Origin: Cyanobium sp. Cruz CV13-4-11
GTDB lineage: Bacteria > Cyanobacteriota > Cyanobacteriia > PCC-6307 > Cyanobiaceae
Direction: 5' to 3'
Length of the DNA: 64,000 nucleotides
Assembly: GCF_024346055.1 (NCBI RefSeq)
Contig: NZ_JAGQCH010000012.1
Location: 1 to 64,000 of the forward strand
A model generated the notes under the pieces. That model had not been told where the DNA came from. It did no database searches and saw nothing but the letters and a program-made list of their open reading frames with translations. Below are positions 28,568 to 41,000 of this stretch, piece after piece (position 1 is the first letter of the stretch; every line of letters starts with the position of its first letter). Position numbers and translations under genes: made by a program.

Positions 28568-31561
28568 CTATTCATAAGTGAGACCAAAGACCGTATCCGC
28601 CATCCAGCGGCGGAACGACTCGTTGTCCATGAACTGCTTGAAGAGCTCCATGTCATCCTTGAGCACATCCGTCATCACGCGCATCAATGCCATGTCGTGT
28701 TCGATCCTTGCATTCTGTTTGTCGGAGTATTGGCGGGCATTCTGGTAGGCGGGGTCCGCGGAAACGCGCCTGGGGATGTCTTCGGTGATCAGGCGGTTGA
28801 CTCGATCCTCGTCGGTCCACTCGATGTTGCCGAACTGATCATTGAACACCTTGAGGATGTTCGAGAGGCGATCCAACTCCGGCCCATGGTTACCGCCACC
28901 ACCGCCAGGTGGCACTGGCTGAATTTCCGCGTCCTCATCGGCAAGCTGAATCCTGACGGCCGCCTGCTTCTCCACGCGGTAACTGTCCATATCGATCGCT
29001 TCCAGGATTCCTGCTGAGAGGTCTTCCTCAATCGGAGCCGGCAGCTTGGAGATGAGGAAGTTCAACAGGATCGAGAGCTTCTCCCAATCGGCGTTGGTGT
29101 AGGGGAGAATCGATGAGAGGAAGCCGTAGGTGCGAGTGAAGGCCTTGGCCTTGCCCTTGAAGGCCACCTGGCCATCTTCGTCAAGCTGCTCCCGGTAGAC
29201 CGCCACGCAGGCATCGAGGATGGAATCGAGAGAATCGCGATCAGCGCCGCCCAGATACAGCTCCACCAGGTCGTCGACCTGCTGCAGATCGTAGACCTGA
29301 TAACCATCGAGGGTGCCCTTAAGGTTGTGAAGCTTGTCGGGGTCAGTTTCGTCGGCGAGGATGGTGGTGCGATGGTAATCCGCGAAAGCCTGCTGAATGG
29401 TGTCGACGTCGTTCATGAAGTCGAGCACGAAGACGTCATGCTTTTTGGGGTGGGCGCGGTTCAGCCTTGACAGGGTTTGCACCGCCTTGATGCCCGACAG
29501 CACTTTGTCGACATACATCGTGTGCAGCAGGGGTTCGTCGTAGCCGGTCTGGAATTTGTCGGCACAGATCAGAAAGCGATAGGGATCTTCCTGGATCTTG
29601 TCGGCAATCTGGCTCGATGGAAACCCGTTGAGGGAGGCTTCGGTAACTTTGCTACCACCGTACTCGTGCTCCCCGGAGAAGGCGACGATGGGCAGGTATT
29701 GACTCTTGCGTTCGGACAGGTAGGAGCGGAAAGCATGGAAATACTGGATCGCCCGTTCGATGCCGCTGGTCACCAGCATGGATCGGGCCTCGCCGCCAAT
29801 CTTTCTTAGGGAAAGCACCTGCTCGTGGAAGTGATCCACCATGATTTCCGCCTTGAGCTGGATCGCATGCTCATGGCTCTCCACGTAGCGGCGGAGCTTC
29901 TTCTTGGCGCGCTTGCTGTCGAACTCGGGATCACTCTCCACCTTTTTGATGAGCTTGTAGTAGCTCTCCACCGGTGTGTAGTGGCGCAGCACATCGAGGA
30001 TGAAGCCCTCCTGAATGGCCTGCTTCATCGTGTAGCTGTGGAACGGAAGGTGCCGCACGGTTCCATCGGCCTGGGGGTCGGGAAGCCCGAAGATCTCCAG
30101 GGTCTTGTTCTTGGGTGTGGCCGTGAAGGCGAAGTAGCTGGCATTGGGCAGCAGCTGCTTGGCCTCCATCAGCCGGTTGATCTTGTCTTCCGTGGTTTCC
30201 TCCTCTTCTTCCACCCCTGTACTGGAGAGGGCCAGGGAGAGGGCCGCCGAAGTACGCCCGCCCTGGCTGGAATGGGCTTCGTCGATCACGATGGCAAAGC
30301 GGCGGCCGCGCTGCTCATTGCCGATTTCGTCAAGAATGAACGGAAACTTCTGAACCGTGGTGATGATGATTTTCTTGCCTTCGGCGATGAACTTGCGTAG
30401 GTCTTCTGAGCGTTCGGCATGGCCTACCGTGGCGCCCACCTGGGCGAACTGTTTGATGGTGCCCTTGATCTGCTGATCAAGGATGCGGCGGTCGGTGACC
30501 ACCAGGATCGAATCGAACACGGCGGTGTTGTTGCGCTCAAGGCCGATCAGCTGGTGGGCCAACCAGGCGATCGAGTTGCTCTTGCCGCTACCGGCGGAGT
30601 GCTGGATCAGATAGCGGCGGCCGGCGCCGTTCTCAGCGGCATCAGCGAGCAGTCGACGCACCACCTCGAGCTGGTGGAAGCGGGGCCAGATCTGCACCGC
30701 CTTCTTCCTGCCGGTCTTCTCGTCGTTGGTCTCCACCACCTGGGCGTAGTTCTCAAGGATGTCGGTGAGCCCCTCGCGGGTGAGGATCTGCTTCCAGAGG
30801 TAGGCCGTCTTGAGGCCCTCCGGGTTCGGGGGGTTGCCGGCGCCGTCGTTCCAACCCTTGTTGAAGGGCAGGAACCAGGAGGCTTTGCCTTTGAGCTGGG
30901 TGCAGAAGCGCACCTCATGGTCGTCCACGGCGAAATGGGCCACGCAGCGGCCGAATTCGAACAGCTTCTCGCGCGGGTCGCGGTCGAGCTGATATTGCTT
31001 CACGGCGTCAGCAACCGTCTGCTTGGTGAGGCTGTTCTTGAGTTCAAAGGTGGCCACCGGTAAGCCATTGATGAACAGGCCCAGATCCAGAGCTCGCTGG
31101 GTTTCATCGCGGCTGTAGCGGAGCTGGCGGGACACGCTGAAGCGGTTGGCGGCGAAGCGCTCGATCGCTTTGGGGTTCCCTGGTGAAGGCGTGCCGCAGA
31201 AGAGATCGAGGTGATGGGGCCCGTGCTTGAGGCCGTGGCGGAGCACGTCGATGCTGCCGCGCCGGGAGATCTCCCCCTGCAGTCGCGCCAGGAACTTGCG
31301 GCGGGTGGGACCATCGACCTCCAGCGCCAGGGAATCGAGGGCATCGGGCTGGGTGGCCATCAGGAAGCCGCGCAGCTGAACGAGATCGATGCAGTAGTCG
31401 CGGTCGTAATGGGTGGGATCTCCCAGCAGCCAACCGGTGCCACCAGCCACCGGCACGCTGGTTTCGGTGGCCACGTGGGCGGGCACGAGCACATCGGTGC
31501 GTCCGGTCATCGCCCGCAGGATCAGGGCCTCCAGGCCCTTTTCGCTGGTGTCGGTGCTCAT
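28568..31561 (-). CDS. hsdR: Type I restriction enzyme, R (restriction/translocase) subunit
   Basis: The 997-residue protein has an N-terminal PD-(D/E)xK nuclease, with DLGLFINGLPVATFELKNS giving the Asp and ExK near residues 155-172. The SF2 translocase has Walker A HSAGSGKSNS near 324, DEAH box VIDEAHSSQGG near 427 and motif III AFTATPKNKT. A helicase C domain follows (LICADKFQTGYDEPLLHTMY, LSRLNRAHPKKHDVFVLDF). It translocates and cleaves unmodified DNA with HsdM and HsdS. It is last in the island and is separated from darG by 114 bp carrying a duplicated motif. Confidence 0.95.
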   Translation of the reverse strand: MSTDTSEKGLEALILRAMTGRTDVLVPAHVATETSVPVAGGTGWLLGDPTHYDRDYCIDLVQLRGFLMATQPDALDSLALEVDGPTRRKFLARLQGEISRRGSIDVLRHGLKHGPHHLDLFCGTPSPGNPKAIERFAANRFSVSRQLRYSRDETQRALDLGLFINGLPVATFELKNSLTKQTVADAVKQYQLDRDPREKLFEFGRCVAHFAVDDHEVRFCTQLKGKASWFLPFNKGWNDGAGNPPNPEGLKTAYLWKQILTREGLTDILENYAQVVETNDEKTGRKKAVQIWPRFHQLEVVRRLLADAAENGAGRRYLIQHSAGSGKSNSIAWLAHQLIGLERNNTAVFDSILVVTDRRILDQQIKGTIKQFAQVGATVGHAERSEDLRKFIAEGKKIIITTVQKFPFILDEIGNEQRGRRFAIVIDEAHSSQGGRTSAALSLALSSTGVEEEEETTEDKINRLMEAKQLLPNASYFAFTATPKNKTLEIFGLPDPQADGTVRHLPFHSYTMKQAIQEGFILDVLRHYTPVESYYKLIKKVESDPEFDSKRAKKKLRRYVESHEHAIQLKAEIMVDHFHEQVLSLRKIGGEARSMLVTSGIERAIQYFHAFRSYLSERKSQYLPIVAFSGEHEYGGSKVTEASLNGFPSSQIADKIQEDPYRFLICADKFQTGYDEPLLHTMYVDKVLSGIKAVQTLSRLNRAHPKKHDVFVLDFMNDVDTIQQAFADYHRTTILADETDPDKLHNLKGTLDGYQVYDLQQVDDLVELYLGGADRDSLDSILDACVAVYREQLDEDGQVAFKGKAKAFTRTYGFLSSILPYTNADWEKLSILLNFLISKLPAPIEEDLSAGILEAIDMDSYRVEKQAAVRIQLADEDAEIQPVPPGGGGGNHGPELDRLSNILKVFNDQFGNIEWTDEDRVNRLITEDIPRRVSADPAYQNARQYSDKQNARIEHDMALMRVMTDVLKDDMELFKQFMDNESFRRWMADTVFGLTYE

Positions 31562-31662: not shown

Positions 31663-31683
31663 GATCAAGTACCCATCAAGTGG
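31663..31683. repeat. 21-bp motif, copy 2 (overlapping darG 3' end)
   Basis: Contains TCAAGTACCCATCAAGT: the half-site TCAAGT occurs twice, 11 bp apart, with the same ACCC core as copy 1. It overlaps the last codons and stop of darG. Confidence 0.55.
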
Positions 31684-32791
31684 CAGGGTCATGGCTGCCT
31701 GTTGGGGCAACACTCAGGCTTAACTGCCCATCAGGTGTAGCTGGCTCCTCCAGCGCTTGCACCCAGCCTGCCTGCGCCAGGACGCTGCTGGCGAGCTCAA
31801 TCTGTCGTGGTGAAAACTGACGTTTGCGAGCATTCCAGGCATGGGTTTGATGCACGAGATCAGCCATCGTCTGAGGATTCTCACGGGTATGCAGCCAATG
31901 AACTGTGGCCAGAAGTTCTAGGCCAAAGGAGCTTTCGAAGCCCGCCACGAGATCAGCAACTCGTTGGAAGCGAGCCTGGGTGGCGGGATGATCCGCGAGG
32001 TAGTGCATCGCCTTCTCGCCAGCATCATCGAGGATGGTGAGAGGCTTCTCGGGAGTATCGCCCCCATCGCCATAGCCCTTGATGAAGTAGCCCTCGATGG
32101 CATTCAGGACATGCCGGAGGTTCTCGGCATAGGGGCCGTAAGGCGCTGCCTTGTAAATGAGCTTTAGTGGTTCTTCGGCTTCCTGGAGGAAATACATGAG
32201 CTTGTGCACTTCCAGCAAGGACACGAAAGGATCCAGCAGTCCGCAGAGATAACGGTGCATCAGGCCAACCAAAGCTGCACGGCCTGGCGTCATCTGAGGA
32301 GCCTTGTGGGCCTTCACGCTTGGCTGGCTGCTTGGTTCTGAAATCGGCTCGAAGAGATAGACCTTCACATGCCCTAGGCCCTGAAAAGCGTCCTGGATGC
32401 GAGCCTTGACCAACGACCAAGGGAGGCCGCCAAGACCACAGCCAAGCGGAGGAACGGCAATACTGGTGATCTTCAGATCCGCCACGACTCGAACCAGATC
32501 AACAAGGCCCGCATCGATGTCTTCCAACCGGCTTTTTCCTTTCCAGTGGCGTTTTGTTGGGAAGTTAATGATATATAGAGGGCCCTGAAGTTGATTAGTA
32601 TTGGTGATGAACATTCTGCCAGGCCTGACTTCGTAGCGCTTGCAAGCCTTGGCATATTCCTTGTAGTTCTCCGGGTACCGATTCTTGAACTGCAGGGCAA
32701 TGCCGCGGCCCATGACGCCGACGCAGTTCACCGTATTGACGAGGGCTTCAGCCGTCGACTCAAGAATGTCGCCACGGGCGGGCTGGATCAT
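31676..32791 (-). CDS. darG: DarG antitoxin: macrodomain DNA ADP-ribosyl glycohydrolase
   Basis: The 371-residue protein has an N-terminal macrodomain (1-155): GDILESTAEALVNTVNCVGV, MGRGIALQFKNRYPENY and SIAVPPLGCGLGGLPW. This matches DarG, including the NTVNCVG loop and GCGLGGL. The C-terminal half, about 180-355, is the DarT-binding DUF4065-like region seen in long DarGs (LLEVHKLMYFLQEAEEPLKL, YGPYAENLRHVLNAIEGYF). It removes ADP-ribose from DNA and neutralises DarT. ATG 32791 is preferred over an earlier start at 32821, because MIQPARGDIL is the normal DarG opening and lies 17 bp after darT. Confidence 0.93.
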   Translation of the reverse strand: MIQPARGDILESTAEALVNTVNCVGVMGRGIALQFKNRYPENYKEYAKACKRYEVRPGRMFITNTNQLQGPLYIINFPTKRHWKGKSRLEDIDAGLVDLVRVVADLKITSIAVPPLGCGLGGLPWSLVKARIQDAFQGLGHVKVYLFEPISEPSSQPSVKAHKAPQMTPGRAALVGLMHRYLCGLLDPFVSLLEVHKLMYFLQEAEEPLKLIYKAAPYGPYAENLRHVLNAIEGYFIKGYGDGGDTPEKPLTILDDAGEKAMHYLADHPATQARFQRVADLVAGFESSFGLELLATVHWLHTRENPQTMADLVHQTHAWNARKRQFSPRQIELASSVLAQAGWVQALEEPATPDGQLSLSVAPTGSHDPAT

Positions 32792-32808
32792 GGCTCGTGA
32801 CCTCCCAC

Positions 32809-33456
32809 TCAATAGTACCAAGAAGATTGTATTTCAACAGGGGGCCGATGTCCACTGGTGGAAAGGAAAGTCTCAACATGCTCTCGAGTGCGTTGATTCT
32901 GAACACCGATCCGTTCAACCAAGTGCCAGGCCACTTGCTCTTCCACAAGAAATTCAGATTGCTTGTGTTCTCTGATCGCAGGCTGGTTCCATTGCCTTGC
33001 CTGAATGGCTTGCCAATTCAACTCTCTCAGGTAATCCAGTGAACCAGAATCTTCGAAATAGCGCGAGCCGGCATTGCCGTTCGTGATGGCCCAACGCCTG
33101 TTCCGCCCATCTGCCCAGTTGGCGACCGTCTGCAGATCGAACTCGAGGTGAACGACGGGACCTTGCCCGCCGGCGTAAGAAAGATTGGGATGATTGCGCT
33201 TGTAAATCAGGAACAGCATGATGGAGCGCGAACAGTAATAGAAGGGAACACACTCTCCGACATGAAGACCTGGATGACTGGCGAGGGTGAGATCCTCTAG
33301 GCGCCGACGTTTGATATCGTCCATTCCGATCACCGTGCCGCCTGGATCGCGCCGGCTGATGATGGCATCCGAATACAGGAAGCCATCGATAATCACCGAG
33401 GGCAACCGATCCACGTGGAGGATGTGATAGATCTTGGGATCGGCTGGAGGGGGCAT
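32809..33456 (-). CDS. darT: DarT toxin: DNA (thymidine) ADP-ribosyltransferase
   Basis: The 215-residue protein has the DarT (DUF4433) pattern: IYHILHVDRLPSVIIDGFLY at the N-terminus, HVGECVPFYYCSRSIMLFLI (NAD-binding Arg region) near residue 75, and the catalytic Glu region REHKQSEFLVEEQVAWHLVE near 165-180. DarT uses NAD+ to ADP-ribosylate thymidine or guanosine in single-stranded DNA, blocking replication; in some bacteria it acts against phage. It starts 6 bp after hsdS and is followed by darG, so the pair sits inside the type I R-M transcription unit. It is noticeably less GC-rich than the flanks. Confidence 0.93.
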   Translation of the reverse strand: MPPPADPKIYHILHVDRLPSVIIDGFLYSDAIISRRDPGGTVIGMDDIKRRRLEDLTLASHPGLHVGECVPFYYCSRSIMLFLIYKRNHPNLSYAGGQGPVVHLEFDLQTVANWADGRNRRWAITNGNAGSRYFEDSGSLDYLRELNWQAIQARQWNQPAIREHKQSEFLVEEQVAWHLVERIGVQNQRTREHVETFLSTSGHRPPVEIQSSWYY

Positions 33457-33462
33457 GGATGA

Positions 33463-34896
33463 TCACACATCTGCATCATCGTTCAGATCGATCTCATCTT
33501 CTCCATTTTCCAGCTCTTCATTGGCATCATCAACTACAGGGTCTTCCACCATCACTTCCTCTGGTAACTGTGCTGCCGCCTCGCGGACATCAAGCTTGCC
33601 GGTAACCACATCGGCGATCAGGCGGGTTCGATATTCGCCCAGGAGGACGATTTCCCTATAGGTAACCTCTAGTGACATTGATACAGCATTGGTCTGCCGT
33701 GCAATGGCATCAATGATTGCCTGCTGTTCATTAAGTGGCGGCAGGAGAATCGGGAAGGTGCGCAACGTTGTGCTGTTTGTCGCCGCAAGGTTCGTAGTTT
33801 GCTTTGCAGTCAACTGGAAAAAAGTACGACCATGCTCTGATGCCATCAGGCCTTCGAGAAACTCAGGAAGCAGTAGAGACCTATTGCAGCGGACAGCAAA
33901 CACATGGTTCTGGTGCAGGCAAACAGGAATCTCGGCGTGCCAAACGCAGCCTCGACCAAGTTTGTCGATATCCCCTCCCTCAGTCATAAGGACATCACCT
34001 GGACGAAGCATTGCCCCTGCGGCCTCGCGTTCCGGCACATCAATGTGCTTAACGTGCCTCAAGTCAACTCGTCCGACTTGGACGTTTGCGACTCGAAGGT
34101 AAGGATAGGAAATAGTTAGCGATCCAAGGTATACCTTGCCCAGGGTCAAGCCAGTCTGGACGCCGGCTACATCCTTAAGCTTCCTCACATCCCAATGCTC
34201 CGGCACATCCCCTAACCACTCAACGCCGGAGGGCTTTAGGCGCACGTTGGGATCAAGGCCGCGGGTGACGGTGCGATGAATGATGGCCTGCTTCTGCTCC
34301 TCCAGCAGATTGATCAGCTTCTGCTTGGCGCGTATGTAGCGGCGGATTTTGCGGTCGGCGTGGTCGAGGAACCGGACGATGGCGGCTTGTTCGGGGAGAG
34401 GGGGGCAGATGATTGGAATCCGAAGGAACTCGTCTGGTTACAATCGCAATCGGGAAGAGTTGATGCCTGTCGAGCGACACATGTACTCCGACTTGTAGAC
34501 GTCAATTCGAAGAAGTCTGTCAAGATATTCGGGATTCAGCTCATCGGATCGTTGAGGCCGATAGATGCCGTAGGCAGGGCTGACGAGACCCACTTGTCGA
34601 GCTATGCCAAGAGCCCCCATGAATGCCCACATTGTATTGATGGCGATATCGCCTGGTCGGCAGATTTTGTAGCCAATGGTTGATTCCGCGAGGAACATCG
34701 TGACGTTCTGTTTGCGAGGCGTTACTCCAGTCTTGTGAGAGACAGAAAGCAGCTCCTCCTTGCCTGTTTCGGAACGATCATCCGCTTCACGATAGAAGTA
34801 CTTGGCTCGCCTCTCAGTCCAATGCTCCGGCACCTCCCCCAAGCAAGGCACGCCAGTGTCCTTCATCGCGGGATAGGGCTTGAGACCGTCAATCAC
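33463..34896 (-). pseudogene. hsdS: Type I restriction specificity subunit interrupted by one in-frame TAA
   Basis: One continuous frame from GTG 34896 to 33463 encodes a normal two-domain HsdS of about 477 codons. TRD1 opens with MKDTGVPCLGEVPEHWTERR. The first conserved region is PPLPEQAAIVRFLDHADRKI and a coiled coil. TRD2 opens with LKPSGVEWLGDVPEHW, followed by PPLNEQQAIIDAI and RTRLIADVVTGKLDVREAA. A single TAA at 34438-34440 falls where homologues read LRL-Y-PDEFLRIP, so one base change from a Tyr codon explains it. As written, a 152-residue first half ends there and an internal GTG at 34245 could start the second half. It overlaps the upstream gene as GTGA. Confidence 0.88.
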
Positions 34897-35276
34897 GGGC
34901 TCACCTCTACCGGTCCAAACTGCCAGCCACGGCGCAGGGCATGGTCCCGCAGCCGCTTGGCGATGGATTTACGCACCCCGTTGCTCTTGCCCGTGAAATC
35001 GATGGACACATGCTCAGGGTCTGGCACTCCATCAGGAATGACCCCGAGGCCTTCACCTTCACATTCACCGACCAGAACTCCAAGGACACCCACCGACTGC
35101 CGGACGCGTTCCACGGTGTAACGATGCCAGGCCAGTTCTGCGGCAATCCGGCTGCCATCATCGAAGGAAAGGAGGCCCTGATCCTTCGGCGTGGGTCGAA
35201 ACGCTTGGCTACCTGGGTGGCCCCCCTCAACAAACGAGGGGTGGATCTGACGCCACAAGGGTGATTCTGGATTCAC
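34893..35276 (-). CDS. Uncharacterised protein Y of the R-M island
   Basis: The 127-residue soluble protein opens SPLWRQIHPSFVEGGHPGSQ then AFRPTPKDQGLLSFDDG, and carries VGVLGVLVGECEGEGLGVIP and EHVSIDFTG. I believe this is a conserved family of unknown function, but I cannot name it. It overlaps both neighbours by 4 nt (ATGA with the 388-residue gene, GTGA with hsdS). It is therefore translated as part of the hsd operon and is probably functionally tied to it. Confidence 0.75.
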   Translation of the reverse strand: MNPESPLWRQIHPSFVEGGHPGSQAFRPTPKDQGLLSFDDGSRIAAELAWHRYTVERVRQSVGVLGVLVGECEGEGLGVIPDGVPDPEHVSIDFTGKSNGVRKSIAKRLRDHALRRGWQFGPVEVSP

Positions 35277-36439
35277 GGAGTCGGCTCTCCATCGCCATCC
35301 TCGGGTCTCGTACTTGTCTTGGAGATCACCCGCGCCATCATGCGCCCGAGAGCTTCGAGGGCCTCCGTGTCATCGAAATCGATGGTCTTCTCCTCAGTCT
35401 CCCCGGTATCCAGATCCATCGCGTGCCACTCGACATGCCCGGTGACTTCATCGAACTCGATTGACACATCAAGCCGCCCGATGAGCCATTCCGCTTCCAC
35501 GCCACCCTCAGGTGTTGGATAAAGACGGGGAAGCTGTGCTTCGTCCTTCAGATGTTCGTTGAACCAGGTGCCTACCCGCGCGAGCAGATCCTGACTCAAA
35601 ACAACCCCCTGACCATCAAGCCAGCCATCACGGAGTTTCTTAAAGTTCTCCAGCTGAACACTTGGGTCTAAGGGATCCAGCAGCTCAATGGCTGTGACCT
35701 CATCGACGCGCTGTAGTTGCTGAGAACGGTCGAAACTACCCACACCGCTTACGCGGAGCCAACTCACCCCGAACTCACCAACGCGCACTTCGCTCAGCTC
35801 TTCAAGCTGTTGATCCGTCACCGTTGCGGCAACCGACCGGCCGTCCACAAACTCGATCGTGATGCTGTGCTCCTTGGGGCGCACATCCCCGAGCTTCACA
35901 ACAAGCTCTACTTCATCGGTAAGTATCTGAACACCCGGCCGAGTGAGCAACAGACGCCGCCGCAGCTCTTTTGTGAATTGGACGGTGGTGCCTTCGCGGC
36001 GAACGAGATCAATGGCTTCCCCATCGTGCAGACCACGACCAAACTTCTCAACGTATGGCCAGACTCCAGCCGGTAAAGGGGTCGATGATCCCTGAGAGGA
36101 ATCCTGTGCATGGGCGATTGCATCGACGAATCGATCGCGTGCTGAACGAGCTGCTTGAGCACGAGAATTCAATCCAGGCAGAAGATCTTCCTCGATGACC
36201 ATGCCGATCTGAGCAACGTAACTGCCCTCGCGCGAACCCAAAAGGTGCATTGTTAGGCCCTCGCTGAACCCGCGCGGTGTGCGCCTACGATTCGGATTGG
36301 ACTGCCGAAACTCGTCCTTGGCAATCTCCAAGATGATTCCCTGAAGCGCCTCCAAGTCCTTCAACAGCGAGAGCGGCAGCGTGTTCGCACGGAAACGCTC
36401 CCCTGTGAAGCGAGGTTCGAGCAGGATCTCAGTGTTCAT
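35273..36439 (-). CDS. Uncharacterised protein X of the R-M island
   Basis: The 388-residue acidic protein has no TM segment or enzyme motif that I recognise. The N-terminal part (LPLSLLKDLEALQGIILEIA then KDEFRQSNPNRRRTPRGFSE) looks helical, and the rest appears beta-rich. There are paired 4-nt overlaps with hsdM upstream and with the 127-residue gene downstream. The placement between hsdM and hsdS is where accessory or regulatory genes of defence islands often sit; the function is unknown. Confidence 0.8.
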   Translation of the reverse strand: MNTEILLEPRFTGERFRANTLPLSLLKDLEALQGIILEIAKDEFRQSNPNRRRTPRGFSEGLTMHLLGSREGSYVAQIGMVIEEDLLPGLNSRAQAARSARDRFVDAIAHAQDSSQGSSTPLPAGVWPYVEKFGRGLHDGEAIDLVRREGTTVQFTKELRRRLLLTRPGVQILTDEVELVVKLGDVRPKEHSITIEFVDGRSVAATVTDQQLEELSEVRVGEFGVSWLRVSGVGSFDRSQQLQRVDEVTAIELLDPLDPSVQLENFKKLRDGWLDGQGVVLSQDLLARVGTWFNEHLKDEAQLPRLYPTPEGGVEAEWLIGRLDVSIEFDEVTGHVEWHAMDLDTGETEEKTIDFDDTEALEALGRMMARVISKTSTRPEDGDGEPTP

Positions 36440-38541
36440 GCGGCCCCTCCGACAATCTCGCCCAGCAGCCCCTCCGTCTCCTTCTCCAGCGCCAGGATGT
36501 CTGCCCGTATCTCCTGCAGCGTCCTCAGCGGCTTGGGCTTGTAGAAGTAACGCGTGAAGCTCACCTCATAGCCTGTCTTCACGCTGCCAGGGTCATACCA
36601 GGCCTCGGGGGAATAGGGCAACACCTCGCGGGCAAGGAAGGCATCGATGCCGCCCTCCTCCAGCAGTGGCACCTGTTCGGTGTCCCGCAGTTCGGGGTCC
36701 GGCTCGTACTGCACCACCCGTTGGCCCTCCTCCAGCTCCACCGAGAAGAACCCCCTCTGGGGATCGGCCGCCTGCTTTCCCGGCTTGAACACCTTGGTGA
36801 TCACAGGTGCCGCCGACTCCTCACGTTCCCCCAGATGGGACAGCAGCAGCTTGGCTTTCTTAGCCGTCCAGCGCAGACCCTGGCCTTTGGCCACCCGTTC
36901 CGTCAACTCCAGCCACTGGTTGGCATCCATGTGGGGGCCATCCCCCATCACCTCATCCACGGCCTCCACCACGTTCTCCAGACCACCCTCACCCGCTATC
37001 ACGGCTTCCTCAGCCAGCGTCGCCAGATGCTCGGCATCGCTGTGGATGGCCAGCCGCAACGGCCGCTCCACCGTGACCTTCCAATAGCCGAAGGCTTGGT
37101 TTGGAAAGATCTTGCTCTCTTCCGTTTCCTCGAACGCCAGAAAGGTGTCAACGATGCGCTGGATGTCGGCTTCGGAGAGTTCGCAGTTCTTCTTGCCGAG
37201 ATTTTTGCGCAGGGGCTTGAACCAGGCTGTGGCGTCAATCAACTGCACACGCCCCTGACGATGGGCGGGCTTACGGTTGCTGAGCACCCAGATGTAGGTG
37301 GCGATTCCTGTGTTGTAGAACATATTCAGCGGCAGGGCCACAATCGCCTCCAGCCAGTCGTTCTCGATGATCCAGCGACGGATGTTGCTCTCACCCTGCC
37401 CTGCATCCCCGGTGAACAGCGAGCTGCCGTTGTGAACCTCGGCGATGCGGCTGCCCAGAGCCGTGCCGCTCTTCATCTTGCTGATCAGGTTGGCGAGGAA
37501 CAGCATCTGTCCGTCGCTGGAGCGCGTGATCAGCGAAAACTCCGGATCGCCGCCGTGCTCAATCAGAAAGCGGGCATCCTTGATGCCGCCCTTGCCGCCC
37601 ATCCGCTCCAGATCCCCCTTCCAGCTCTTGCCGTAGGGCGGGTTGGAAAGCATGAAATCGAACTCCCGAGCTGGGAAGGCGTCGTTGGCGAGGGTCGAGT
37701 GCTCAGGCCCGCCCACGATGTTGTCGGCGCCGTCGCCCTCGCCCTTCAGCAGCAGATCGGCCTTGCAGATGGCGTAGGTTTCGGCGTTGATCTCCTGTCC
37801 GTAGAGGTGGCTGGCCACCTCCTTGCCCTGGTCGGCGGCCAGCTCCTTGAGTTCCTCTTCCGCCACGGTGAGCATGCCGCCGGTGCCGCAGGCGCCGTCG
37901 TAGAGCAGGTAGGTGCCGGATTCGATCTCAGAAGCGATCGGCACGAAGATCAGCTTGGCCATCAGCTTCACGGCATCACGCGGGGTCCAGTGCTCGCCGG
38001 CCTCCTCGTTGTTCTCCTCGTTGAAGCGGCGCACCAGCTCCTCAAACACCGTGCCCATGCCGTGGTTGTCGAGGCCGGTGGGGCTGAGGTTGATATCCGG
38101 CGAGAGGAACTTGCCGATCAGGGTGCCGAGGGCATCGGCCTTCGACAAGCGCGGGATCTGGTTGCGGAACTCGAAATTCTCCAGGATGTCCTGCACGTTG
38201 GGCGAGAAACCATCCAGATAGGCCTCAAAGTCGGCCTTGAGCTTCTGCTGGCCGGCGCGGGAAGTGAGATCGCGCAGGGTGAATTTGGAGGTGTTGTAGA
38301 AGGCCTGGCCGGCTGCCTGCCTCAGGGCCGGGTCCTGATGGACGATCTCGGCGGCATCGAGGGAAGCCTTCAGATCCAGCACCGCCTGCTTGGTGGGCTC
38401 CAGCACCGCATCCAACCGACGCAGCACCGTCATCGGCAGGATCACGTCGCGGTACTTGCCGCGCACGTACAGATCCCGGAGCACGTCGTCGGCAATGCCC
38501 CAGATGAAGTTGGCGATCCAGTTGAGCTGGCCCTGTTCCAT
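36436..38541 (-). CDS. hsdM: Type I restriction-modification DNA methyltransferase subunit
   Basis: The 701-residue protein starts at ATG 38541. HsdM_N helical domain (NWIANFIWGIADDVLRDLYV) is followed by the N6-adenine methylase domain with SAM motif YDGACGTGGML near 215 and catalytic NPPYGKSW near 300. A long C-terminal extension past residue 500 (DILALEKETEGLLGEIVGG at the end) makes it larger than the usual 500-residue HsdM. It methylates host sites as HsdM2S. It is the first gene of the island and is divergent from the molybdoenzyme gene across 188 bp. Confidence 0.95.
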   Translation of the reverse strand: MEQGQLNWIANFIWGIADDVLRDLYVRGKYRDVILPMTVLRRLDAVLEPTKQAVLDLKASLDAAEIVHQDPALRQAAGQAFYNTSKFTLRDLTSRAGQQKLKADFEAYLDGFSPNVQDILENFEFRNQIPRLSKADALGTLIGKFLSPDINLSPTGLDNHGMGTVFEELVRRFNEENNEEAGEHWTPRDAVKLMAKLIFVPIASEIESGTYLLYDGACGTGGMLTVAEEELKELAADQGKEVASHLYGQEINAETYAICKADLLLKGEGDGADNIVGGPEHSTLANDAFPAREFDFMLSNPPYGKSWKGDLERMGGKGGIKDARFLIEHGGDPEFSLITRSSDGQMLFLANLISKMKSGTALGSRIAEVHNGSSLFTGDAGQGESNIRRWIIENDWLEAIVALPLNMFYNTGIATYIWVLSNRKPAHRQGRVQLIDATAWFKPLRKNLGKKNCELSEADIQRIVDTFLAFEETEESKIFPNQAFGYWKVTVERPLRLAIHSDAEHLATLAEEAVIAGEGGLENVVEAVDEVMGDGPHMDANQWLELTERVAKGQGLRWTAKKAKLLLSHLGEREESAAPVITKVFKPGKQAADPQRGFFSVELEEGQRVVQYEPDPELRDTEQVPLLEEGGIDAFLAREVLPYSPEAWYDPGSVKTGYEVSFTRYFYKPKPLRTLQEIRADILALEKETEGLLGEIVGGAA

Positions 38542-38658
38542 GGCAGACCGTTGGAGCCAGTGGGCCGACGCGCTCGCCCAAGGATGCCTCAACGGCAGTG
38601 GGGTTAGGTGGCCTGGATGGCAAAAGTGCGCCCGAAGCCAGGGAAGCTGGCGCATTGG

Positions 38659-38672
38659 GTAAACCCCGCTAC
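38659..38672. promoter_or_regulatory. Possible NtcA-type site GTA-N8-TAC
   Basis: GTAAACCCCGCTAC matches the cyanobacterial nitrogen regulator NtcA consensus at all six fixed positions and lies 57 bp upstream of the YdeP/FdhF-like gene. I see no clear TAN3T box about 22 bp downstream, and roughly ten or more chance matches are expected in 64 kb. Confidence 0.3.
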
Positions 38673-38729
38673 CTGCCCCCCACCCAGGGAGCCCAGCGGC
38701 CAGAGTGAGGGGCAACTCCGGCCGGCCCC

Positions 38730-41000
38730 ATGAGCGACGACGCCAGCCCCGCCGATGCCGCCACACCCGGCCAGGGCGGCGGCTGGCCCCTGATCGACGG
38801 CTGGGCCAAGGCCACCCTCAGTCCCCGGGGCCCGAAGCTCTGGCAGACCCTCAACCACAAGAGCGCCTGCCTCTCCTGCGCCTGGGGCACCGGCGGCCAG
38901 CACGGCGGCTTCGTCGACGAGCTGGGGGAGCCGCTGCAGCGCTGCCTCAAGAGCGTCGAGGCGATCATGGCCGAGCTGCAGCCGGCGGTGAGCGAGGGGG
39001 TGTTCGGCACCCGCAGCCTGGCTGAACTCCAGCAGCTCTCCTCGATGGAGGCCGACCGCCTCGGCCGCCTCAGCCACCCCATGCTGCTGCGTGACGGCCG
39101 CAGCCACTACGAGCGCATCGGCTGGGACGACGTGTTCGCGATCGCCGAGGCCGCCTTCCGGCGCCCGCCGGAGCGGGTGGCCTCCTACAGCTCGGGCCGC
39201 TCCTCCAACGAGGCCGCCTACCTGCTGCAGCTGCTGCTGCGGGCCATGGGCTCCAACAACCTGGCCGACTGCTCCGACCTCTGCCATGCCCCCTCCACCG
39301 TGGGGCTCAATGCCGTCTTCGGCTCTGGCACCTCGATGGTGAGCCTGGAGAGCCTGCAGCAGGCCGACTGCGTGGTGCTGGTGGGCTCCAACGCCCCGGC
39401 CAACCATCCGCGGCTGATGAACGAGCTGATCAAGCTGCGCCAGCGGGGCGGCACGGTGCTCGTGATCAACCCGGTGATCGAGGTGGGGCTGCTGAAGTTC
39501 GGCTCGCCGGCCTTCCCGATCCGATCGATGCTGCAGGGTTCGGCGATCGCCTCCCTGTTCCTGCAGCCCATTCCGGGCAGCGACACGGCCGTGTTCCTGG
39601 GGCTGCAGAAAGCCCTGCTGGAGGCCGGCGCCGTGAAGCGCGACTTCCTGGCCGCCCATGCCGAAGGCTGGCAGGCGCTGCTGGAGCAGCTGCAGGCCAC
39701 CGCCTGGGAGGCGATCACCGCCAGCTGCGGCCTGAGCCGCCAGGAGCTGGAGCACGCGGCCGCCGTGATCGCCGCGGCCCGCGGCGTGGTGTTCGCCTGG
39801 GCGATGGGGATCACCCACCATGCCAACGGCATCGACAACGTGCAGGCGATCGCCAACACCGCCCTGCTCAGCGGCAACGTCGGCCGCCCGGGGGCGGGAA
39901 CCATGCCGATCCGGGGCCACTCCAACGTGCAGGGCTTCGGCTCGATGGGGGTCACCGTCAAGCTGCAGGCGGAGATGCAGGAGGCCCTGGAGCAGCTGCT
40001 GGGCCGGCCCCTGAGCCGGGTGCCCGGCTACGACACCCGCGCCCTGATCGCGGCCGCCGATGCCGGCCACGTCGACAGCCTGCTGTGCCTGGGGGGCAAC
40101 CTCTGGGGCGCCAACCCCGACAGCGGCGAGGCGAAGCGGGCCTTGGGCCGCATCGACACGATCCTGTACCTGGCCACCAAGCCCAACCAGGGCCATTTCC
40201 ACGGCCTGGCGGCCCGCCAGACCCTGGTGCTGCCGGTGTTCAACCGCTTCGAGACCCCCCACCGCACCACCACCGAATCGGGCAACAACTACGTGCGCCT
40301 CAACGAACCGGGCTCCACCCACCTGCGCCACGCCGACCTGATCAGTGAGGTGACGTTCCTGGCCGAACTGGCCCGGCGGCTGATGGGCACGGATCCGATC
40401 GACTGGGGGCAGCTGCAGGATCCGTCCTACGTGCGGGACCTGATCGGCCGCACCGTGCCCGGCTACGGCCCGATCGCCCGCATCGATGCCACCCGGCAGG
40501 AGTTCAACGTCGAAGGGCGTCTGTTCGACACCCCGCGTTTTCCCACCCCCAGCGGCCGGGCCCGGATGGCGCCCACCCCCCTGCCGGAGCTGTCGCTGCC
40601 GGAGGCGGAGCACTTCGGCGGCCTCGAGCCCGGGGAAACCGGCCTGGTGCTGGCCCTGATCACGGCCCGCAGCTACGGCCAGCACAACACCGTCGTCTAC
40701 AAGGCCGGCGACAGCTACCGGGGCATGCCCCACCGCCACACGATCCTGATGAACCGGGCCGACCTGCGCCGCTGCGGCCTGGCGGCCCACCAGCGGGTGA
40801 CGGTGCAGGGGGAGGCGGGCGCGCTGGACGGCGTCGAGATCATCCCCGGCGAGATCCGCGAGGGGGCGGCGCTGATGTTCTACCCGGAGGTGAACGTGAT
40901 CATGAAGGCCGTCATCGATCCCGGCTGCGGCACGCCGGCCTTCAAGCGGGTGCCGGTGCTGGTGCGGGGGCCAATGCCGGTGGTCAGGGAGACGGGCTAA
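38730..41000 (+). CDS. Molybdopterin oxidoreductase, YdeP/FdhF family
   Basis: The 756-residue protein has N-terminal SACLSCAWGTGG (the two-Cys start of YdeP-type enzymes, not the four-Cys 4Fe-4S site of true formate dehydrogenases). Then come YSSGRSSNEAAYLLQLLLRA, DCSDLCHAPSTVGL near 181, VVLVGSNAPANHPRLMNELI, GNVGRPGAGTMPIRGHSNVQ and a C-terminal molydop_binding domain (NRADLRRCGLAAHQRVTVQG). It binds bis-MGD. Substrate unknown; YdeP relatives are linked to acid resistance rather than formate. It depends on moaA, mobA and moaB of this window. It ends convergent with, and overlapping by 17 bp, the GGDEF-EAL gene. Confidence 0.85.
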   Translation: MSDDASPADAATPGQGGGWPLIDGWAKATLSPRGPKLWQTLNHKSACLSCAWGTGGQHGGFVDELGEPLQRCLKSVEAIMAELQPAVSEGVFGTRSLAELQQLSSMEADRLGRLSHPMLLRDGRSHYERIGWDDVFAIAEAAFRRPPERVASYSSGRSSNEAAYLLQLLLRAMGSNNLADCSDLCHAPSTVGLNAVFGSGTSMVSLESLQQADCVVLVGSNAPANHPRLMNELIKLRQRGGTVLVINPVIEVGLLKFGSPAFPIRSMLQGSAIASLFLQPIPGSDTAVFLGLQKALLEAGAVKRDFLAAHAEGWQALLEQLQATAWEAITASCGLSRQELEHAAAVIAAARGVVFAWAMGITHHANGIDNVQAIANTALLSGNVGRPGAGTMPIRGHSNVQGFGSMGVTVKLQAEMQEALEQLLGRPLSRVPGYDTRALIAAADAGHVDSLLCLGGNLWGANPDSGEAKRALGRIDTILYLATKPNQGHFHGLAARQTLVLPVFNRFETPHRTTTESGNNYVRLNEPGSTHLRHADLISEVTFLAELARRLMGTDPIDWGQLQDPSYVRDLIGRTVPGYGPIARIDATRQEFNVEGRLFDTPRFPTPSGRARMAPTPLPELSLPEAEHFGGLEPGETGLVLALITARSYGQHNTVVYKAGDSYRGMPHRHTILMNRADLRRCGLAAHQRVTVQGEAGALDGVEIIPGEIREGAALMFYPEVNVIMKAVIDPGCGTPAFKRVPVLVRGPMPVVRETG

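Follow-up and report, generated by a model that had tools for sequence, protein, structure and literature searches.

hsdS of the type I restriction operon hsdM-M32A-M32B-hsdS-darT-darG-hsdR in Cyanobium sp. Cruz CV13-4-11 is probably a recent loss-of-specificity allele that arose by an ordinary nonsense mutation. A lone in-frame TAA at codon 153 splits a reading frame that otherwise aligns from end to end with intact HsdS proteins, and the other six genes of the operon are uninterrupted ORFs. The window, by which we mean the whole 64,000-nucleotide stretch of DNA analysed here, lies in contig C4 of a genome of 3.41 Mb (52 contigs, 100% complete, 0.84% contaminated).

Stop codon, reading frame and predicted fold of HsdS

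hsdS occupies positions 33463..34896 of the minus strand and starts at a GTG preceded by a good ribosome-binding site, GAGGTGA. Translation from 34896 to 33463 gave 477 codons, of which codon 153 was the sole stop: the triplet at 34438-34440 reads TTA on the plus strand, which is TAA on the minus strand, in the context SRLRL-stop-PDEFLRIP. The TAA lies outside any homopolymer, at the end of TRD1, with the first coiled-coil helix 14 residues further on, and no second stop follows in the frame. The parts of the protein on both sides of the TAA aligned end to end with full-length, stop-free HsdS proteins of three other loci, L035 (70.5% identity overall, the nearest full-length relative without a stop), L036 (63%) and L037 (62%), and the read-through frame matched PADLOC Specificity_I (PDLC03072, E 5e-103). 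The preliminary description had reported a single in-frame TAA splitting what is otherwise one intact two-TRD HsdS frame; the strand reading and translation bear out the first part, and the alignments upstream and downstream, with no other stop, bear out the second. As it stands, then, hsdS is not one uninterrupted reading frame. Since 133 of its 476 codons are one substitution away from a stop, such a lesion calls for no particular explanation.

The genome carries one copy of this hsdS. An intact second copy was sought and rejected, as there was one full match and the hsdS on contig C34 is a different gene. The parental allele was not found either in the genome, where the gene is single, or in a search of 400 genomes of the family, which gave a partial match at best (72% DNA identity, confined to the first 707 of 1434 bases).

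TRDs are swapped in the HsdS family, so relatives of TRD1 are the right comparison at codon 153, and we restricted the comparison to them. After removal of duplicate records and of the window's own three records, 38 distinct hits were left, one of them without coverage of the column. Tyr stood at this column in 18 of the 37 covering hits, in 13 of the 18 with at least 40% identity (the other five having Thr in three cases and Arg in two), and in all four with more than 50% identity (L118/L041, L060, L047 and L092). Judged from these alignments, Tyr is typical of close TRD1 relatives but not invariant. The earlier statement that homologues have Tyr is accordingly right for the nearest TRD1 relatives and not for all, and the related claim that the lesion is a single substitution is consistent with Tyr in those nearest relatives.

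hsdS is a mosaic. Its TRD1 is closest to L041/L118 (77% amino acid identity in TRD1; L041 is from Synechococcus sp. CS-1329), and for TRD2 with its flanks the nearest sequence is L035 (84.6% DNA identity across 836 bases), which belongs to a MAG that carries the label Gammaproteobacteria. The window shares the central and outer parts of the gene with the same-genus genome G029. The TRD1 type of the window occupies the second position in L060 (66%), L092, L034 and L016, and its TRD2 type the first position in L080 (44%). The two halves of hsdS are themselves related (26% identity, E 5e-8).

The read-through frame was modelled with AlphaFold2 from 20 aligned HsdS proteins (mean pLDDT 83.8, pTM 0.74). 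The model has long helices at residues 167-212 and 388-431, the first and second coiled-coil helices, and its best PDB matches were S subunits of type I or related enzymes (7vs4_C, 1yf2_A, 3okg_A, 5ybb_D and 2y7c_A). By the model, the PDB matches and PADLOC, the read-through frame has the build of an HsdS, with two TRDs, a central conserved helix between them and a second helix at the C terminus.

The stop leaves two fragments. The N-terminal one (34438..34896, minus strand, 152 residues) has most of TRD1 and, in the model, no coiled-coil helix; searched alone, it had no match in Pfam. A functional N-terminal half would consist of a complete N-terminal TRD followed by the central helix, and as this fragment ends at residue 152 and the helix starts at 167, we rejected that candidate. 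The C-terminal ORF (33463..34245, minus strand, 260 residues; Pfam Methylase_S, E 3e-6) starts at the first in-frame ATG, GTG or TTG beyond the stop, a GTG at 34245 (residue 218) about 190 nt from the stop and just past the end of the first helix at residue 212. Repeat 2 begins at this GTG and carries the LGDVPEHW motif that is also found at the normal N-terminus; a complete TRD2 and the second coiled-coil helix follow in the same ORF. On the model, the C-terminal ORF is the only fragment with a half-HsdS layout. No clear ribosome-binding site precedes the GTG, the best match being the triplet TGA, compared to GAGGTGA at the hsdS start; cyanobacterial genes often lack a ribosome-binding site. 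A scan of 33400-39000 for sigma-70-like promoters returned no sites, although cyanobacterial promoters may be missed by it. Helix 167-212 is absent from both fragments, the N-terminal one ending at residue 152 and the C-terminal one starting at 218.

The operon, its same-genus orthologue and broken hsdS genes

The operon runs on the minus strand from 38541 to 28568 with tight spacing. hsdM (36436..38541, 701 aa) is followed by two genes that match PADLOC candidate defence proteins, PDC-M32A (35273..36439, 388 aa, E 1e-91) and PDC-M32B (34893..35276, 127 aa, E 2e-40), and hsdM/M32A, M32A/M32B and M32B/hsdS overlap by four bases each. Downstream of hsdS come darT (32809..33456, 215 aa; NF048013, 217.8 bits against a cut-off of 150), darG (31676..32821; NF048014, 444.7 bits against a cut-off of 250) and hsdR (28568..31561, 997 aa), so that darT and darG lie between hsdS and hsdR on one strand. 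darT begins 6 nt past the hsdS stop codon, and its own ribosome-binding site (GTGA) is weak; darG probably starts at an internal ATG at about 32791 and not at the TTG at 32821. All six genes other than hsdS are intact, and the lengths of hsdM and hsdR are close to those in G029. The order hsdS-darT-darG-hsdR was also found in L129, L038 and L064. DarTG inside a type I operon is a known arrangement; the window departs from it in the PDC-M32 pair and the broken hsdS.

PDC-M32A and PDC-M32B had no match in Pfam or NCBIfam. A search with PDC-M32A in 386 genomes of the phylum gave five matches including the window's own, the other four being weak, and G029 was not among the matches listed. The pair also occurs in L129, L052, L121 and L146, and it stays with HsdM of the same type. 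A different arrangement was seen in L143 (10447-12555) of another genome of the genus, G203, where darG and part of darT near the contig end are followed by a 139-aa 3' remnant of hsdS, a gene that we take to be ATPase-like, and hsdR; darTG there is upstream of the hsdS tail.

At locus L129, G029 has all seven genes of the operon in unchanged order. Identity to the window was 92% for HsdM and for HsdR, 83% for PDC-M32A, 82% for PDC-M32B and 79% for DarG. hsdS of G029 is intact and has other TRDs. Its darT has a frame change near residue 117 (L129 8023-8666), the opposite of the situation in the window, with its broken hsdS and intact darT.

dN/dS between the window and G029 was 0.079 for HsdM, 0.083 for HsdR, 0.214 for M32A, 0.180 for M32B and 0.098 for DarG. 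For the 73 hsdS codons 164-236, downstream of the stop, it was 0.086, and for codons 164-477 compared with L035 it was 0.171. The hsdS flanks, at 0.60 for the N flank (26 codons) and 0.57 for the C-terminal flank against G029, do not fit a uniform picture; these high values are probably due to the adjoining swapped TRDs and the acidic tail, and we put no weight on them. On these substitution patterns, relaxed selection is not visible in central hsdS, which would mean that the stop is recent, or an error, or that the downstream part is still used; the low central value should be read as showing only that decay has not begun. A long-decayed hsdS pseudogene was rejected on the low central dN/dS and the lack of a second stop in frame.

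Broken hsdS genes were present at four of 80 named loci (L054, L057, L090 and L105), a set found via conserved peptides that may favour intact genes. An hsdS ORF of at least 360 aa was present at 77 of the 80, the exceptions being L057, L090 and L105; L054 has a frame change. Among 26 distinct genes, representing 30 loci picked from 142 and mostly of the same genus or family, six including the window's were broken or short (L001, L011, L012 with L126, L021, L122 and L127). Premature stops and nonsense mutations in hsdS have many precedents in the literature, S. aureus accounting for 31 nonsense mutations (PMC6918075). A broken hsdS is an ordinary event.

We also considered whether short hsdS ORFs in relatives could be natural half-size genes that support a half-HsdS, and rejected this: in those looked at more closely, an insertion, frame change or stop accompanied the short ORF, or the contig ended there. 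Because they are tied to breaks, they are evidence for frequent breakage and not for a half-HsdS design. In G002 (L145 and L140, on contigs C110 and C42) an insertion, transposase-like by our reading of the reverse frame, apparently breaks hsdS within TRD2, and the N-terminal half keeps the central helix region, the layout of EcoDXXI::Tn5; this N-half with the helix region (L012/L145) is an interrupted gene. In L138 (4228-9404) of G020, two near-identical copies of what is presumably a transposase-like gene disrupt an hsdS-like gene that belongs to a different type I system.

Probable loss of specificity and its alternatives

We suggest that a recent nonsense mutation ends translation of hsdS inside TRD1, before the first coiled-coil helix. 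The 152-residue product would then be unable to dimerise or to hold HsdM, no M2S or R2M2S complex of the locus's specificity would form, and HsdM and HsdR of the locus would neither methylate nor cut unless served by another HsdS. The host should not suffer from such a loss, since without S both modification and restriction disappear at once. The stop would also be expected to lower translation of darT more than that of darG, because the genes overlap or nearly abut, darT beginning just downstream of hsdS with a weak ribosome-binding site of its own. The view that darTG simply stays active may therefore be wrong.

One argument against loss of specificity is that the C-terminal fragment, which in the model is complete in TRD2 and the second helix, could act if translated. 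Started at the GTG at 34245, it would form a homodimeric half-HsdS with TRD2 and the second helix present twice, recognising an interrupted palindrome of TRD2 specificity. The GTG is well placed for this, just past helix 1 and at the LGDVPEHW of repeat 2; the two halves are related, TRDs change places within the family, and EcoDXXI with an engineered N-terminal deletion behaved in just this way (PMC3874165). Against it stand the distance of the GTG from the stop, the want of a clear ribosome-binding site and the empty promoter scan, with its caveat for cyanobacterial promoters, and all natural or laboratory homodimers in the review section are type IC (PMC3874165). We hold such a homodimer to be very unlikely because no clear start signal was seen. 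If formed, it would be a natural C-half homodimer arising from one point mutation, a one-base route to a new restriction specificity, and the operon would methylate and cut an interrupted palindrome of TRD2 specificity. It is more improbable still, to the point of being negligible, that both fragments are made and join into one split HsdS. Co-expressed N- and C-truncated EcoDXXI S genes did regain wild-type activity (PMC3874165), but in the model helix 167-212 is in neither piece of the window's HsdS, and we rejected complementation on that ground.

The stop might instead be a sequencing or assembly error, with hsdS intact in the organism. An error would show up as just such a lone stop in a frame that is otherwise flawless and under purifying selection, the assembly is a draft of 52 contigs, and the sense codon of the closest relatives is one substitution away. 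The completeness and low contamination of the genome and the single copy of the gene, however, give no sign of a mixed assembly here, and the TAA is outside a homopolymer; in assemblies, a substitution error is less usual than a homopolymer indel. Natural hsdS nonsense alleles are, moreover, common (PMC6918075). We consider an error unlikely. A second argument against loss of specificity is that, to judge from sequence similarity, HsdM and HsdR might continue to function with a related HsdS encoded at another site in the genome. The genome has a second type I operon on contig C34 of the same assembly (L115 5333-15200), with an intact HsdM, a 466-aa HsdS and an HsdR; a gene that we take to be Fic-like lies between its hsdM and hsdS, and a 567-aa ORF between its hsdS and hsdR. 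Over their lengths, HsdM of the two operons is 66.9% identical and HsdR 59.8%, and across the central region of HsdS 47 of 73 residues are identical, as are 32 of 58 in the second helix region. Supply in trans from this intact HsdS also assumes a dead hsdS in the window and so overlaps with loss of specificity. The HsdM identity is below the 70-90% similarity range given for members of one family (PMC10030836), and S. epidermidis HsdS variants are described as active only as part of their specific complex (PMC6918075). We regard trans supply as conceivable but unlikely, a rival and not the leading explanation.

The preliminary description had offered two outcomes, lost specificity or a half-HsdS acting as a dimer. 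Lost specificity is the better supported of these; a functional N-half is not expected, as the stop precedes helix 167-212, and the only piece with a half-HsdS build is the C-terminal one, which needs the internal GTG and its doubtful start. The accompanying picture, with hsdR and hsdM idle and darTG the only active part, went too far: the genome has an intact second type I system with a related HsdM (67%), two further genes of the operon match PADLOC candidate defence proteins, and expression of darT may fall. Should loss of specificity be correct, hsdS is an ordinary inactivated specificity gene, and annotation should not count the operon as active restriction. The window and G029 would then form a small natural pair of operons that are damaged in different arms, hsdS in one and darT in the other, and that could help to test whether an embedded toxin-antitoxin pair retains a broken restriction operon in the genome.

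Comparison with known systems

The closest likeness for the stop itself is hsdS of NgoAV in Neisseria gonorrhoeae, a natural type I hsdS split by premature stops; depending on where the stop falls, the system is inactivated or gains a new palindromic motif (PMC6789123, PMC3874165). Truncation at residue 62 abolishes the activity of NgoAV, whereas a stop at residue 201 yields a system with altered specificity (PMC6789123). The functional N-terminal halves described in the review, EcoR124I delta-50, EcoDXXI::Tn5 and NgoAV, all keep the central helix (PMC3874165). Because these halves keep the helix, and by the rule of 62 versus 201, the TAA of the window groups with the inactivating stops: its position ahead of the central helix matches the stop at residue 62 and not the one at 201. 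By this analogy, the locus would make no working specificity subunit. The two cases differ in origin, as frameshifts gave rise to the NgoAV stops, in one case within a phase-variable homopolymer, whereas the TAA of the window is a lone stop outside any repeat.

S. aureus and S. epidermidis provide hsdS nonsense mutations in natural strains (PMC6918075), where the truncated HsdS is predicted, with support from transformation, to leave no restriction barrier (PMC6918075). The host and the HsdS family are different there, and as far as they are described, their operons are without darTG. If the C-terminal half were made in the window, the model for it would be EcoDXXI delta-N, with TRD2 and the second helix as a homodimer (PMC3874165); that construct was made on purpose and expressed, whereas the window has no sign of a start signal. 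The review section names one natural half-HsdS homodimer, which is an N-half, and only type IC enzymes (PMC3874165). For the operon as a whole, the counterpart is the RptR-RMS-DarTG2-M48 island of enteropathogenic E. coli, which has DarTG between hsdS and hsdR in the same gene order and protects against several phages (PMC12255303). The island has rptR and an M48 peptidase, whereas the window has PDC-M32A and PDC-M32B between hsdM and hsdS, and a broken hsdS.
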